A stretch of 64,000 bases of DNA from Desulfolithobacter dissulfuricans (GTDB lineage Bacteria; Desulfobacterota; Desulfobulbia; Desulfobulbales; Desulfobulbaceae). Position 1 is the stretch's first letter, and every line of letters starts with the position of its first letter. The stretch covers positions 2,690,001 to 2,754,000 of the forward strand of contig NZ_AP024233.1 of NCBI RefSeq assembly GCF_025998535.1. The letters run 5' to 3'. Both the position numbers and the translations under genes were made by a program. The notes under the pieces were generated by a model that had not been told where the DNA came from, made no database searches, and saw only the letters and a program-made list of their open reading frames with translations. Shown here one piece after another: positions 3,443 to 30,108 of this stretch.

Positions 3443-4462
3443 TCATCGTCCTGCCTTCTTTGGCTCAGGCTCCAGGTAAAATTCCCGGGGCTGCAGGTCG
3501 GGAAACCCTTCCGGGCTCCTGCAGGCCAGGTACTGCCTGATCTCTGTACAGAGTTCACACTTGGACCAGTAGCTGGTGCGGGAAGGACTGAAGCCATAAA
3601 CTTCTCCGGCCCAGCGATATAATGAGGCCAGTCCTTCGAGGGCCAGCCTGGTCAAAACCGGATATTTCTCCGGGTCGACAGGTTGGCCCAGGTCTCTCCA
3701 GTCCAGTGCCAGGCCGCTGCACAGCCCGGGAATATAGTTACCCAGAAGATCGAGATGAAAATGGGTGGTATCGCCAGGCTCCCGGCAACCGCTGCCACCT
3801 TTGCGAAGAATCTCCTCCAGGGGTAGCCGCGGGAGATGGGGCCTGAAGGTCTCAAGCGCCCTGCCCCCGGCCCTGATCCCGTACCGTTCCATCAGGCCGG
3901 CCACATACCCGGCCCCGAAATGTTCCTCCAGCAAACCCAGTTTCACGGTCTTTTCCGTATCAAAGCGACCAAGCTCGGGGAGGAACTGCTTCTGCCAGGG
4001 AAACACCGCTATCCCCGTGCGGTGGCAGGCTTCCAGCACACCCATGGTCCTGGCCAGCGGGATGAACTCGTTATGAAAGGGACTGATGGAAACCAACAGG
4101 GTACGCAGACCCGCCTCCTTCAATCTCTCAAGCAGTCCACAGGCCTGCTCCAGGTCGCGGAACCAGGAACTGTTGGTTTCCACATAATCGATCCCGACCC
4201 CTTCCCTTCTGGCTATCATGAGAATCTTTTCCAGCCGGCCAGGACGAAGCAGCGGTTCACCGCCGCCGATATGCATGGACCTGCAGCCCAGTGATCTGGC
4301 CACTGCAAAGGCGGCCGAGGCCCGATCATCACTGATATACTCCCTGGACCTGAACGGACTGCAGCGATACAGGCAGTGACCACAGCGTGAGCTGCAGTCG
4401 TAATTGGTTATCAGTCCGCCACTGGCAAGGCTACTGATGGTATAGCCGTGTTCCCGGCCCAT
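3443..4462 (-). CDS. Radical SAM protein with extra C-terminal cysteines
   Basis: Radical S-adenosylmethionine enzyme. The cluster motif CxxxCxxC is at C23, C27 and C30, with one more Cys at 34, and the SAM-contacting GGGEP motif lies near residues 66-70. The C-terminal third carries further cysteines (GCREPG, LCSG, KCELC, LAC) that could hold an auxiliary Fe-S cluster, as in SPASM or twitch domains; that reading is inference. At 339 aa it has room for one catalytic barrel plus this tail. It lies just downstream of the small gene at 4487-4858 on the same strand and may be co-transcribed with it. No precursor peptide or substrate gene is obvious nearby, so the reaction is unknown. Confidence 0.8.
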   Translation of the reverse strand: MGREHGYTISSLASGGLITNYDCSSRCGHCLYRCSPFRSREYISDDRASAAFAVARSLGCRSMHIGGGEPLLRPGRLEKILMIARREGVGIDYVETNSSWFRDLEQACGLLERLKEAGLRTLLVSISPFHNEFIPLARTMGVLEACHRTGIAVFPWQKQFLPELGRFDTEKTVKLGLLEEHFGAGYVAGLMERYGIRAGGRALETFRPHLPRLPLEEILRKGGSGCREPGDTTHFHLDLLGNYIPGLCSGLALDWRDLGQPVDPEKYPVLTRLALEGLASLYRWAGEVYGFSPSRTSYWSKCELCTEIRQYLACRSPEGFPDLQPREFYLEPEPKKAGR

Positions 4463-23049: not shown

Positions 23050-26000
23050 TCAGCCGCTGCGGATGAGCTCCAGAAGTTCCTCGGCACTGATCCGGGCCGA
23101 GACATCAGCACCCTCGAGAAGAGAGTTGGCCAGATCGCGTTTTTCCTGATGCAACCGGACAATTTTCTCCTCGATGGTCCCGGCGGTGACCAGCCGGTAG
23201 ACGGTTACCGGCCGTTTCTGGCCGATACGGTGGGCCCGGTCGGCGGCCTGGTCCTCCACGGCCGGGTTCCACCATGGATCCATGTGAATGACATAGTCAG
23301 CCGCTGTCAGATTGAGCCCCAGGCCACCGGCCTTGAGGCTGATGAGGAACAGATCCCCTTCTCCGGCCTGGAAAGACTCCACCTGGCGCTGCCGGTCCTT
23401 GGCCGGGGTAGTCCCGTCAAGATACTTGTACACAATACCCCTGGTATCGAGAAATTCCCGAATCAGGGCCAGATGACCGGTGAACTGACTGAAGACCAGG
23501 GCCTTGTGCCGCGAGGCCAGCAACTCCTCGATCACCTCGGCAAAGACCTGCAGCTTGGTGGACGGGATATCGGTTTCCGGCATGACAAGCCTGGGGTTAC
23601 AGCATGCCCGCCTTAGCCGCATGATCTCGGCCAGGATCTGCAGATGTCGACCTGACTTTTCAGCACTGCCCTCGATATTCTCGATGGCCTGCTGGCGGAT
23701 AGCCTCATAGAACTGCATTTCCTCGGGCTTCATCTCCACCCGCAGCGTTATCTCGGTGCGCGGAGGCAGCTCGTCAAGGACCTGGGACTTGATCCGCCGC
23801 AGCATAAAGGGCCGGATCAGTTTCTTGAGCTTACGCCTGGCCTCCCGGTCATGGTGTTTTTCAATGGGAATACCGAACCGGGCATTGAACTGCTTATAGG
23901 TGCCGAGCAGGCCAGGATTGATAAAGCGAAACAGGTTCCAGAGTTCACCCAGGTGGTTTTCAATGGGGGTACCGGTGGTGATCAGGCGAAACCTCCCCTT
24001 GAGACGCATGGCGGCCTTGGACCGCTTGGTGGCCGCATTCTTGATCGCCTGGGCCTCATCCAGGACAATGGTCTGCCAGTCGACCTGTTCCAGCAGTTCC
24101 ACCTCCTGCTGCAGGAGCGTATAACTGGTGATAAGCAGATCAAACTTGCCCAGCGATTCGATGGTCTCCTTCCGGTCCGTTCCGGTCAGGGTGCGGATGT
24201 TGAGGGTGGGAGCAAAGCGGAGCGCCTCTTGTTCCCAGTTCATACATACCGAGGTGGGCGCCACCACCAGGGTGGGCCCCTCCTTGGCCAGGTAGAGAAT
24301 AACGGCCAGGGCCTGGAGTGTTTTGCCAAGCCCCATATCATCGGCCAGACAGCCACCGATGCCCAGATGGGCCAACCGCACCATCCAGACAAACCCCTCG
24401 GTCTGGTAATCCCGCAGGTCTGCCTGCAGAGTGGAGGGCACCTCTGGAACCAGATCCTGGGCATACTGGATGGCCTCAAGCTGTTTTTTCCAGCCCTCGT
24501 CCGCTGTGGTGCAGGTCTGCCTGGTCAAGTCATCCAGGGCAATAGCCGCCAGGGGATGGATATGGACCTCATCCTCACCCTCGGCCGATTCCATATCGCC
24601 AAAGAGTATCAATTCCTCCAGCTGTTTGCGAAACTCCTGGGTCAGGGCGAGAAACTGGCCCTCGCCGATGGGAATAAAGCGGCTCTTGGCCTCGCGTACC
24701 TTTTCCAGCAGGACCTTGAGCTCGATCACCTCGTCCTGATCCACTTCCAGATGGCCGGACAGGGCAAACCAATTCTGCTGACTGGTCCGGATATTGAGAT
24801 TGAGCTGATTGATTCCCGCCCGGCGACGGACCGCCAGTTTTTCCCCTTCCGGCCACTCAAGCACCACCCGGTCACGGATTTCCTCGATCTCAAGCAGGGC
24901 CTGCAGGCACTCTTCCGGATCAAGCAGATGCCATTCCCGCTTGTTCTCCTGCTCCAGATCAATGGCCAGGTCCAGGATGGGGCAACTCTCCTCGATTTCC
25001 CGGGCCTTTTCTTCTTCGAGCTTGAGATTGCGCCGGGTCTGCAGCCGGCGTCCACCTACCTCGGCCATGAGATTGGCCACCCCGACCCCGGGCTTGAGAT
25101 AGAGCCCGCCCTTGCCAAAAGGCTGGACAAACATCTCCAGCCTGAATCCGGAGCCATAGGGGATAATGTGGATATGGATGGTGGGATCGGCCTCGACCAT
25201 GGTGACATCCTGCCCTTCCACCGACACGTCGATGGCCGAGTGTACGGTCATGAACGAGGCAATATTGCCGATGGCGTCCAGCACCTGTCCGGACGCGGCC
25301 ATGGGAACCCGCAGTCCATGGCGCCCGGTGATCCCGGCAACGCGGCGATGCTCATCCTTGATATGGATGATCCGAAAGCGGGTGGGGGTCTCCTGCCAGA
25401 CCGCGATCTTGCCGTCACCGATGTCCTGGGCAAAATGGATGAACAGAAATTCGCCCTGTTTTTCCACCAGCAGCTCCGGCTCTCCGGCCACCAGCTCAAC
25501 GGGTGTGGAAGGTGATTTTTCGAGAAAAACGAGAGGGTGCCCCACAAGGGCAGGCAGGGCCTCGTCCAGATCAAAGGCACAGCCGCCATTTCTGGCCGTG
25601 GCATCCCCCACCTGGCGGATGGCGCCGCAGACCTTGCGATCCTGGGGGTGAGAAAGTCCAGCCCACGGGACTGCATCAGACGGTTGAGGGCAACGAGCCG
25701 TCCCTTGCTCCAGTTTCCGGAACTGCTTTTCTTCTGCTCGCGGGCGGAAAGGTGCAGCCGACCATCCCGGTAGTCTACCATCCAGGCCAGTCGGGTCCGC
25801 CGCCTCGGTTCCCGGGCCCGGGAGGTGACACTGATCAGCTCCTGGAGACTCTTTTTCCAGTCATCCTCTGGCGAGATGATGTGCACCACGGTCCGGCAGC
25901 CGAGCTGTTTCCGCAGGGACACGGCGACGGGGCCGTACTTGGCCCCATGCTCAGGATTAATGGCGGCCAGCAGTTCGGCCGCCTCCATGGCCACCCAGAA

Positions 26001-27257
26001 AAAACCGCTCTCCTGCCCCTGCTCCATCAGATGGACCAGGGCGTCCTGGTACTCCGGCGGGATCTCCACCCCCATCCAGTGGAGGGCAAGGACCGAGATA
26101 AGGATGGTCAGGCTGCGGTTGTCGCTCTCCAGCCGCTCGGTCAGTTCCATCATGTCCGGCATGTTGCCGTCCGTGGAACGGACCACGGCATCGAGAAAAC
26201 GAAACGGGATCTCCTCGGGACACCCTTTACAGCGCGAAAGGACAATGGCCACTGCCCGCCGGACCATTTCCCGGTCTGCCGGTTCGTTACGCTCAAGCAT
26301 GCTCAGAAGGCAAAATACCCCTGTTATCCCAAGGAAAAAATTCCCTTCATCACCGGCATACGCGTTGAGCTGTTCCAGATCCCGGACATAGATATCCCGC
26401 GCCAGGGAACTGTCTCCCCTCAGGAAAGCCACCGTGCCGGCAAAACCAGAGCCCTGAAACCCGTCTTCATTGTCCTCCACCAGACGGGCCAGGGAATCAA
26501 GCCGGCCCTGGAACAGATAGTAACTGGCCAGCATACGCCGAAACGGCAGCAGCTCGAATTCGGAGAGAGAACTGGTAATACCGACCTCAAGATACTCCTG
26601 AACCGGCGGAAAAGAGACCAGGGATTCCATGGAATAGCGGATGACCTGATCCAGGAGAAAAAACTGCAGAGAACCGGGAAGCGAGGCAAACCAGGCAATA
26701 TCAAAACCCGTGCCGGCCATCCGTACCCCGGGTGGTTCCGGACCGAGATGCTCCTGACACTGCTGTTCAAGAAATGCCTGGGCTTCCTCTATCTTGTCAA
26801 AATCCTGGCTGTAGACACCGATGCGGAACTGGCGCATGGCCCGCCAGCAGCGGGTAGACCATTTTCCGTAGGTGTACGAGACTGGAGCTTCCTTTTCGAT
26901 GAGGTATGCCAGTGCGGAAAAGAGACCGTTCTCCACAGCCTTCCGGGTCATCAACTCGGCAAGTACCGGAACGACCTGGTTCTGACGGTTCAGCAGACCA
27001 AGCTCGCGCAGACGGAGGACCGAGGCCTGAATTTCCTCCTTCACCGGCGCCCGGCCGCCGGGGAAATCCATATCCACCCGGCCAAGGCAGTTGGCAAGAA
27101 ACGTCACCGAGACCGGTTCATAGATGATGGATATGAACTGGAGGAGAAAAAGATCCGTTGGAGACAGACTGCTGAGAATGTTCTGATCAAAAGTGGTGGT
27201 TTCGTCGGTCGGCATATCCTGCTGCACACAAAAAGAGTAAAAAAAATCCCAAGACAT
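23050..27257 (-). CDS. SNF2-family DEAD/DEAH-box helicase, about 1400 aa, broken by one frameshift
   Basis: A large Swi2/Snf2 ATPase that would move on double-stranded DNA. The C-terminal part has the full set of motifs: DDMGLGKT (Walker A), LDEAQAIKN (motif II), TGTPIENHL, and DRAHRIGQ (motif VI). The N-terminal 550 residues are helical with no recognised domain. The frame breaks at a G5 run (25644-25648). The N-part loses frame after LDFLTP, and the C-part continues as QDRKVCGAIRQVGDATARNGG. One added base joins them. A region of shared helicase content before the motor (about 560-900) may bind partners. It is transcribed alone. The start at 27257 lacks a strong ribosome-binding site; an ATG at 27215 is possible. 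Confidence 0.88.
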
Positions 27258-27422: not shown

Positions 27423-27472
27423 ACCCGGAGTCTCCCTTCGGTCGCTTACCCGGAGTCTCCCTTCGGTCGCTT
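27423..27472. repeat. Two perfect 25-bp tandem repeats
   Basis: A 25-nt unit starting ACCCGGAGTCTCCC occurs at 27423-27447 and again at 27448-27472, followed by a 3-nt partial copy. It lies in the 534-nt gene-free stretch 27258-27791. I see no other feature in 27258-27640. Confidence 0.9.
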
Positions 27473-27691
27473 ACCTGGTCCAGCCATGCTGGTTTATATG
27501 AAATTCTCGTCCCACCCTCCAGGAGGACAACAGCTTCCATGTTTCGTTGTGCAACCCGTGGGAGCCTGCATGGGTGTTAGAAGAAGAGAAAAGATCTATC
27601 CCCGTGAGATCATGCCCAAATAACCGGTGTCAACAGTGATATGTAACGAAAAAAACAGACTATTTTCCACATATCAACTACGTTTTTCTCG

Positions 27692-27770
27692 GTTGACAAA
27701 AAGGCAATTACCTATAATCATAGTTGTCACAATGCCAACCACACATACCTTTTTGTCAACTGTTGACAAA
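27692..27770 (+). promoter_or_regulatory. Operator/promoter region with GTTGACAAA palindrome
   Basis: TTTGTCAAC-T-GTTGACAAA (27752-27770) is a perfect 9-bp-arm palindrome ending 21 nt before the recombinase-like start. The same half-site GTTGACAAA also occurs at 27692-27700. TATAAT is at 27713-27718, 14 nt after the TTGACA of that half-site. That spacing is too short for an ideal sigma-70 promoter, so the exact -35 is uncertain. The repeated sites suggest binding by a dimeric regulator, perhaps the adjacent protein. Confidence 0.6.
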
Positions 27771-27791
27771 CATAAATGACAGGAAATCTCC

Positions 27792-28508
27792 ATGACCGCC
27801 TTCGGCTATCTGTTTATAGATATAGAGAAAAGATTCAGGGTACCCGTAGCTGACCAGCAGCAGGTCATTGAACAGTACAGCCAACAGCTTGGCCTGAGCG
27901 TGGACCAGTTTTTCATCGAGCAGAACAGTTCGGCCCGACGTCCCTTTGGTGAGCGGGACGAGGGGCATCGGCTGCTGCAGATATGTCAGGCCGACGACAT
28001 GATCATCGTGGCCCGTGCCGACATGGTCTTCTCACGGGCCACGGAAGGAGTACGGCTGATCCGCCGCCTGAAGAAACAGGGGATCTCACTGCACATTGCG
28101 GAACTGGAAGGGGATATTGTCAAACCCCAGGAGCGGAAACTGGTTATCTCCACCGGGATCGCCGACCTGGTCGCCACCCTGCTCGAGCGCCTTGCCCAAC
28201 GGGAGCGATCCGGCCAGAGCGCCGCCATCCGTCATGCCAAGAAGATACAGCAGAAGCAGGGCCGCTACCTGGGCGGGCCCGTACCCTTTGGCTGGCAGGT
28301 GAACGGGGAGGGACGACTGGAAGAACACGGGGAGGAACAGCTCATCATCGAAGAGATGATGGCCATGCGGGCCGACCGGTGGTCGTATCGGGACATCGCC
28401 CGGCAGATGAAGGAAAAACATGGGCTGGGTTTTTCCCACGAGGGGATCCGCAAGATCCTGGCCTCCAACCAGACCCGCAGGGAAGAGATGGCCCGGCGGG
28501 CCGACTGA
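27792..28508 (+). CDS. Serine-recombinase-like protein without catalytic residues
   Basis: Shaped like a resolvase/invertase: N-terminal catalytic fold (about 1-140), long helix (LLERLAQRERSGQSAAIRHA), then a recombinase domain (GRYLGGPVPFGWQV) and an HTH-like end (SYRDIARQM, FSHEGIRKIL). The usual YxRVS with the nucleophilic serine aligns with YLFID (residues 6-10), so Ser is Asp and the preceding Arg is Phe. The DRLxRS block aligns with ADMVFSR and has lost its arginines. It is therefore likely inactive as a recombinase and may be a DNA-binding regulator. A palindrome lies just upstream. No att sites or cargo are seen. 238 aa. Confidence 0.75.
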   Translation: MTAFGYLFIDIEKRFRVPVADQQQVIEQYSQQLGLSVDQFFIEQNSSARRPFGERDEGHRLLQICQADDMIIVARADMVFSRATEGVRLIRRLKKQGISLHIAELEGDIVKPQERKLVISTGIADLVATLLERLAQRERSGQSAAIRHAKKIQQKQGRYLGGPVPFGWQVNGEGRLEEHGEEQLIIEEMMAMRADRWSYRDIARQMKEKHGLGFSHEGIRKILASNQTRREEMARRAD

Positions 28509-28653: not shown

Positions 28654-30108
28654 TCACTGCAGAAACTGCTCGTTGGTCCAGATCTTGGCATGCTGCTGAA
28701 CAAAGGCAAGCCAGTCGGCAAGCAGACGGCTCTGCGCCGATGCCTGGAGCTGCTCGCGGAGTTTTTCCTGTTCCTGCCCGTCCAGTGGCTTGTCCGACTG
28801 ACGGCGCTCCTTGACCGCAAAGACATAATAGGAGTCGCCAACCTCCACCGGACTTTTGGCCAGCTTCTCCCTGGCCGGCAGGGCAAAGGCCTCCCGGACC
28901 ACAGGCAGGGGCGGAGTTGTCCCGCCCTGGAGGGTGGCCCGCTTGAAAAATCCGGACTCCTGTATTTTCACACCGGTTCCTGCTGGTAGCTGCCCTTTTT
29001 CGGTGGCCTTCCTTAGAAAATCTTCAGCTGCCTTTCTGGCCAGGTCAGCAGCCCTGTCTTTCCGGTAATCAGCCACCACCCGGTCCCGGACCTCATTCAG
29101 TTCCGGCACGGCCGCCTCCTGTATGTCGGCAACGTAGAGGATGGCAAAACCGTTTTTCAGTTCCACCAGCGAGCTGAGCTCACCTTTTTTCAGGCGAAAG
29201 GCCTTTTCAAGAAAGGACGGATCCGACACCACACCGGCCGGTGGCTGGCTGCGGGAGAAATAGTCGGTGACCTGAACCTTCTCCTTGCCAAGGTTTTCAT
29301 ACTTGTCGATGCTGCCGGCCCTGATGATCTCTTCATAGGCAGTGGAGGCCTGTTTGAAGGCCTCGCTCTTGTTCCCTGCGCCCTCCCCTTCGATGGCCTT
29401 CACCGGAAAGTAGAGATATTTCAGTTTGACCTTGGGCTCCTGACGATACTCTTCCTTATGTTGTTCATACCAGGGGGCAAGATCCCCATCGTTCACCTGC
29501 ACCTGGTCGACAAAATCCTCCGGTTTGAACACCGCGTAGTCAAGCCGGACCTCCTCACCGAGAAAGTCAAGCCAGACCTGGAACTCGGTATCAGGGACCA
29601 CGGCAAACGAGATCACCGCATTGGTTACCCGGTCGGCCAGCATGTCCCGCTGCAGTCCCTTTTCGTAGGAAGAGGGGCTCAGCCGGTTCTGGGCAAGCAG
29701 ATCCTTGTAGCGCTGGAGACTGAAGTGGCCGTTTTCATGAAACACGTCCATGTTTTTAATGGCCTCCTGGGTGGCCAGCTTGGACAACCGGATCCCCATG
29801 GCCTCCCCACCCTGCCGCAGCAGCTCGGCCCGGATCATCTGCAGCATCACCTGCCGCTTGATACCCAGCTGCTCGAGCAAACCCGGCGGCAGAGCGCCGC
29901 CGAACTGCTGACGATACTGCTCCACGGTTCGATCGTAGTTGCGCTGGAAATCCTGCAGCGAGATCTCCTCGCCATTGACCACGGCGATGGAATTTCGCTT
30001 GTTGGTCATGTTGGTTCCCACGCCCCAGAAGATAAAGACGATGGCTATGATCAGCACCAGGCCCTGGATCAGGGTTGACTGGGCCTGTCTTCGTAAGATG
30101 CTCAGCAT
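28654..30108 (-). CDS. PpiD-like membrane-anchored peptidyl-prolyl isomerase/foldase
   Basis: Periplasmic foldase with a single N-terminal transmembrane helix (about residues 14-33, LIQGLVLIIAIVFIFWGVG region), a SurA-like chaperone domain (VNGEEISLQDFQRNYD start) and one parvulin-type domain (about 250-370). At 484 aa it is shorter than E. coli PpiD (623). The chain continues to a C-terminal chaperone helix bundle. It would act on proteins leaving the Sec translocon. It stands alone, convergent with the recombinase-like gene. Confidence 0.85.
   Translation of the reverse strand: MLSILRRQAQSTLIQGLVLIIAIVFIFWGVGTNMTNKRNSIAVVNGEEISLQDFQRNYDRTVEQYRQQFGGALPPGLLEQLGIKRQVMLQMIRAELLRQGGEAMGIRLSKLATQEAIKNMDVFHENGHFSLQRYKDLLAQNRLSPSSYEKGLQRDMLADRVTNAVISFAVVPDTEFQVWLDFLGEEVRLDYAVFKPEDFVDQVQVNDGDLAPWYEQHKEEYRQEPKVKLKYLYFPVKAIEGEGAGNKSEAFKQASTAYEEIIRAGSIDKYENLGKEKVQVTDYFSRSQPPAGVVSDPSFLEKAFRLKKGELSSLVELKNGFAILYVADIQEAAVPELNEVRDRVVADYRKDRAADLARKAAEDFLRKATEKGQLPAGTGVKIQESGFFKRATLQGGTTPPLPVVREAFALPAREKLAKSPVEVGDSYYVFAVKERRQSDKPLDGQEQEKLREQLQASAQSRLLADWLAFVQQHAKIWTNEQFLQ

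Follow-up and report, generated by a model that had tools for sequence, protein, structure and literature searches.

A serine recombinase homolog lacking catalytic residues is predicted to repress its own gene in Desulfobulbales

Genes and features of the locus

The window, the whole 64,000-nucleotide stretch of Desulfolithobacter dissulfuricans DNA analyzed here, contains a gene at 27792 to 28508 on the plus strand that encodes a 238-amino-acid, catalytically dead serine-recombinase-like protein. The gene is present in a single copy in the 3.6-Mb genome. Membership in the serine recombinase superfamily was indicated by orthologs, by a match to Pfam Resolvase (PF00239, 6e-10), and by an AlphaFold2 model built from 29 family members (pLDDT 88.5), the best Foldseek matches of which were the large serine recombinase Bxb1, the Sin-DNA complex, and gamma-delta resolvase. 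An earlier note on this DNA had claimed a resolvase fold and proposed structure prediction against gamma-delta resolvase, and the model bears the claim out. The resolvase catalytic domain, located by alignment to catalytically complete plasmid and phage relatives, spans residues 1 to 120 (27792 to 28151, plus strand). The predicted C-terminal DNA-binding part (28257 to 28505, plus strand) contains the motif GRYLGGPVPFGW and resembles the first half of the Recombinase domain, as indicated by a weak PF07508 match, HTH_32 matches in 28 of 29 members, and the helices of the model; of the recombinase domain also claimed earlier, a part resembling the start is present. Within it, a putative helix-turn-helix, YRDIARQMKEKHGLGFSHEGIRKIL, lies at residues 199 to 226 (28386 to 28469, plus strand), where invariant alignment columns (R200, S215, H216, G218, and R220) accompany model helices at residues 199 to 210 and 216 to 237.

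The gene is flanked by two conserved neighbors, a divergent SNF2-family helicase gene (23050 to 27257, minus strand; Pfam SNF2-rel_dom, 1.7e-75) and a convergent gene for a PpiD/SurA-like peptidyl-prolyl isomerase (28654 to 30108, minus strand; Pfam SurA_N_3). The order of SNF2 helicase, dead recombinase, and ppiD was kept in 31 of 40 loci, mostly with a DsrC-like gene next. The window's SNF2 gene is broken up into two frames that overlap (25248 to 27257 and 23050 to 25611), whereas relatives have a single long open reading frame, and the split is either a frameshift or an assembly error. The window's PpiD-like protein is 484 amino acids long compared to roughly 630 in most relatives, which it matches in two pieces, and it seems to be missing an internal part. 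About 25 bp (CCGGAGTCTCCCTTCGGTCGCTTAC) are tandemly duplicated at 27430 to 27475, between the SNF2 and dead-recombinase genes, and a search for RNA elements gave no Rfam match in the region.

The setting differs from that of a Tn3-family element in that the gene is chromosomal, lies between the SNF2 helicase and ppiD, and has no transposase among its adjacent genes. PADLOC gave no match for the dead-recombinase protein. A role in defense was considered and rejected, as the SNF2 neighbor matches DpdE, ZorD, and other defense helicase models through helicase domains common to them and adjoins ppiD as a core neighbor even where the dead recombinase is absent. In genomes without the gene, SNF2 adjoins ppiD, and neither paired dyads of the kind described below nor a gene remnant was found between them. 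In a Desulfocapsa-type subclade (loci L048, L066, L067, and L083 in genomes G128, G127, G126, and G129, respectively), the gene is relocated beside folC, cobalamin-synthesis, or nucleotidyltransferase genes, the names of which were read from translations.

Catalytic residues and descent of the family

Alignment to catalytically complete relatives indicated that the window protein has phenylalanine in place of R8, aspartate in place of S10, methionine in place of R68 (residue 78), and serine in place of R71 (residue 81), while Y6 and the equivalent of R45 (R55) are retained. Thus, neither the nucleophilic serine nor R8, R68, and R71 of an active serine recombinase is present. R8, R68, and R71 were likewise missing from all 39 aligned family members, the R45 equivalent was found in 39 of 39, and Y6 was invariant. 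Position 10 was variable (D, A, T, E, S, N, P, or C), and the two members of the 39 with serine there also lacked R8, R68, and R71. These three arginines activate the phosphate in serine recombinases. The replacement of the nucleophile by aspartate had been read correctly in the earlier note; its statement that the active-site arginines were gone holds for R8, R68, and R71 but not for the R45 equivalent, which is still arginine and invariant. Because the three arginines are absent from every aligned member, including those with serine at position 10, we conclude from the alignment that catalysis has almost certainly been lost from the family.

A profile search found the dead-recombinase family in 44 of 258 Desulfobulbales genomes, with one gene per genome, one of which is split in two. 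Carriers include Desulfocapsa metagenome-assembled genomes, Desulfofustis glycolicus DSM 9705, Desulforhopalus, and Desulfoprunum, and every intact ortholog checked lacked R8, R68, and R71. Among 395 genomes of the phylum, no further member was found outside Desulfobulbales; two extra matches keep the catalytic residues. In a protein tree, members from the window's own family formed one clade (UFBoot 99) and those from Desulfocapsaceae another (UFBoot 85), and every genus with at least two members formed a clade. Identity between orthologs is about 40 to 50% at intact length across the two families, and dN/dS was 0.09 to 0.21 in five pairs. We conclude that the dead-recombinase family is under purifying selection and that it is old and vertically inherited rather than a lone pseudogene. 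Truncated or split copies occur in three genomes (L012/G009, G133, and G176), and the gene is missing from many relatives. Because SNF2 lies next to ppiD without a remnant in gene-less genomes, the gene would have been either inserted once and then often lost or gained early. A possible second case is a chromosomal homolog without S10, R8, R68, and R71 in the alphaproteobacterium Enterovirga aerilata (L180, 3001 to 3741), which clusters with the dead family (UFBoot 100), perhaps through long-branch attraction.

Paired dyads upstream of the gene

Three copies of GTTGACAAA lie upstream of the gene, at 27692 to 27700 (plus), 27752 to 27760 (minus), and 27762 to 27770 (plus), and the window contains five copies compared to 0.45 expected by chance. 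The three copies, two of which form a perfect palindrome, are located where the earlier note had placed them, but the palindrome that it took for the operator is only the third site of a larger dyad array. The note had missed that the 27692 copy is the left half of a dyad overlapping a TTGACA hexamer and that a further dyad lies between that copy and the palindrome. The first dyad, O1 (TTGACAAAAAGGCAA, 27693 to 27707), matches 9 of 10 consensus positions, and the second, O2 (TTGTCACAATGCCAA, 27724 to 27738), matches 10 of 10 and follows O1 by 31 bp. The palindrome, O3 (TTTGTCAACTGTTGACAAA, 27752 to 27770), has a 5-bp spacer instead of 3 bp and is centered about 30 bp past O2; many orthologs have a TTGAC half-site at the O3 position after the dyad pair. 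A probable promoter recognized by consensus match, with TTGACA, a 17-nucleotide spacer, and AATCAT (27693 to 27721, plus strand), overlaps O1 at its TTGACA hexamer, and a TATAAT at 27713 to 27718 with a 14-nucleotide spacer is an alternative candidate, also by consensus match, for the −10 side. Orthologs have a TAGTAT/TATTAT-like element between O1 and O2.

The dyad common to the ortholog upstream regions is TTGNCA-N3-TGNCAA, 15 bp in length. Dyads scoring at least 9 of 10 were found at 20 sites in 14 of 41 upstream regions compared to 0.53 expected in shuffles, although these counts are not fully independent of the consensus, which was drawn from the same regions. Of the 41 regions, 15 had dyad pairs spaced exactly 32 bp apart, whereas shuffles gave a mean of 0.02 and never more than 1; the 32-bp distance corresponds to 3.05 turns at 10.5 bp per turn and compares with the 31 bp between O1 and O2 in the window. 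The 32-bp spacing and the genome-wide specificity are stronger tests than the dyad counts. Across 258 genomes, paired dyads with zero to two mismatches were found directly upstream of the dead-recombinase gene; apart from a single unrelated site (G151:C301), the only other matches were simple tandem repeats. Recognizable dyads are missing in front of about half of the orthologs (genera g45, g40, g39, g48, and g50), although the putative recognition helix is conserved in them. We conclude that phased dyads overlap the probable promoter of the gene and that their layout would fit a repressor straddling that promoter.

Relocated copies of the gene still carry dyads in front. In the relocated subclade, the dyad arrays are at a greater distance upstream, and a second, weaker dyad set closer to the gene is present in three of its four genomes. 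Because the dyads stay with the relocated gene away from SNF2, the possibility that they serve the divergent SNF2 gene is disfavored.

Neither the scan of the window's own genome nor the pair scan of 258 genomes found a second conserved target of the dyads. The genome scan for more sites proposed by the earlier note found the exact palindrome TTTGTCAACTGTTGACAAA once in the 3.6-Mb genome, and the only other matches had three mismatches and occurred at the level of the control pattern. Four of the five exact single dyads in the genome fall within open reading frames of at least 120 amino acids; once one mismatch is allowed, single dyads become so frequent that no meaning can be read from them. 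Two dyad-like sequences lie upstream of an acetolactate synthase gene (L042, approximately 1485 to 1520; genome positions 2235524 to 2235559). A second target there, near ilvB (2,235,541), was rejected, as it had no counterpart in nine relatives. Targets on mobile elements were also rejected, as exact dyad pairs in viral contigs were tandem repeats or were not near a recombinase gene.

Predicted self-repression and its alternatives

The specificity of the paired dyads for the gene, and their presence in front of it after relocation, suggest that the putative binder is the protein that the gene itself encodes. We infer that this protein binds the dyads, with repression as the result, and that neighboring dyads are occupied by cooperating dimers. 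One way in which the gene could be controlled is if it encodes a plasmid-type dead resolvase, kept as a sequence-specific DNA-binding protein, that represses its own gene through the promoter dyads, and we consider this account probable. Counting against it are the orthologs that have the protein but no recognizable dyads, the shortness of the dyads relative to classical resolvase sites, and the need of a regulator with no other target found for some further purpose. A recombinase-derived, self-controlling repressor, as the earlier note had suggested, is thus the best-supported reading on the comparative evidence of orthologs without catalytic residues, purifying selection, and a gene-specific phased operator.

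The gene would descend from a compact plasmid-type serine resolvase whose strand-cleavage chemistry had been lost by the time that Desulfocapsaceae and the window's own family diverged and which was retained for sequence-specific DNA binding. Dimers would occupy the TTGNCA-N3-TGNCAA dyads straddling the gene's own promoter, about three helical turns apart on the same face of the DNA, and once bound would block RNA polymerase. In each of the two dyads, the halves are conserved to about the same degree, which favors one dimer per dyad, although selection of the sites by the full dyad biases this comparison. Moreover, the fixed 32-bp spacing suggests contacts between dimers on one DNA face. Alternatively, one dimer could bridge TGNCAA-N17-TTGNCA (29 bp), a length near that of resolvase site I, which is 28 bp with TGTC...GACA ends.

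The predicted wiring would be that of an active Tn3-type TnpR repressing itself at res, minus the recombination half. Classical resolvase sites are 25 to 34 bp long, and the res of TnpR has three such subsites. The operator here is composed of shorter, 15-bp dyads 32 bp apart and does not have the three-subsite organization. Like Tn3/gamma-delta TnpR, the window protein has a resolvase fold, dyad sites over its own promoter, and, by prediction, self-repression; TnpR, however, is an active, transposon-borne recombinase, whereas the window protein is catalytically dead, chromosomal, and outside any transposon. Self-repression by active resolvases is already known, and TnpR owes its name to its repression of expression through binding to res, where it represses tnpA and tnpR (PMC7157771). 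Large serine integrases such as Bxb1 and phiC31 gave the best Foldseek match, and the C-terminal part of the window protein is like the start of their recombinase domain. Unlike these integrases, which have a zinc ribbon and coiled coil and at least 450 amino acids, the 238-amino-acid window protein has the recombinase-domain start only and lacks the zinc ribbon, the coiled-coil part, and the catalytic residues.

One alternative is that the dyads are sites of another conserved transcription factor, which would control the dead-recombinase gene as just one target among others. In its favor, dyads of such a size are bound by several repressor families, and half of the orthologs lack dyads. A regulator of other genes should nonetheless have more sites, whereas paired dyads occur essentially only before this gene among the 258 genomes and are kept after relocation, and relatives do not share the sole intergenic near-match that the window's own genome has near ilvB. 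We consider control by another factor unlikely.

A second alternative concerns what a self-repressing protein would be for, as a regulator of itself alone needs a further reason to persist, such as interference with plasmids, DNA architecture, or weak targets below the consensus scan. The protein could be a dominant-negative guard that occupies res-like sites or poisons the tetramers of resolvases from incoming plasmids, with self-repression serving as homeostasis. Such a role would supply that reason, and dead subunits could poison recombinases, which work in dimeric and tetrameric form. Moreover, the closest catalytically complete relatives are encoded by small plasmids (Gluconobacter, Methylobacterium bullatum, Vibrio, and Methylobacterium CB376) and by phage ctjtQ328. 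The compact plasmid resolvases (about 220 amino acids; Gluconobacter, M. bullatum, and Vibrio) share with the window protein its length, domain order, GRYLGG.VPFG motif, and C-terminal helix-turn-helix, but they keep R8, S10, R68, and R71, which the window protein lacks. Against a guard, these relatives are just 28 to 37% identical to the window protein, and matching operators were found on no plasmid or phage, the viral matches being of the kind described above. We regard a guard as rather improbable. Vibrio plasmid pVPGX2015-1 (L254, approximately 3680 to 3930) has two ACACAAATTGTGT-type palindromes upstream of its resolvase gene, perhaps that enzyme's own sites.

That the gene is a decaying, functionless remnant would agree with the lost catalytic residues, the truncated or split copies, and the gene's absence from many relatives but is very unlikely in light of the low dN/dS, the intact length kept across two families, the invariant DNA-binding residues, and the conserved operator. 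Still more improbable is recombination or nicking through another nucleophile, for which the invariant R45 equivalent and Y6 might be cited, as R8, R68, and R71 are absent throughout and position 10 varies freely.

Self-repression by a dead resolvase would resemble the co-option of mobile-element transcription factors, in which a mobile-element DNA-binding protein is likewise kept for host regulation; the examples that a term search of a review on this subject gave were helix-turn-helix repressors, antitoxins, and active invertases, with no dead serine recombinase found among them (PMC8987985). Literature searches, the scope of which took in few subscription journals, found no description of such a dead-resolvase regulator. 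More tentatively, the family might represent a lineage-wide class of dead-resolvase regulators defined by dyads three turns apart, resolvase-type contacts, and either targets beyond self or a plasmid guard function, a possibility that we consider doubtful. Genes of this kind are likely annotated, as are their plasmid relatives, just as "recombinase family protein." The exact 32-bp phasing provides a simple handle on whether resolvase-style contacts are kept for regulation. If true, self-repression by the dead resolvase would clearly exemplify the conversion of a recombinase into a regulator, in which two families of sulfur-cycling bacteria have kept the DNA-binding and apparently self-controlling half of the protein and done without catalysis for as long as those families have existed.
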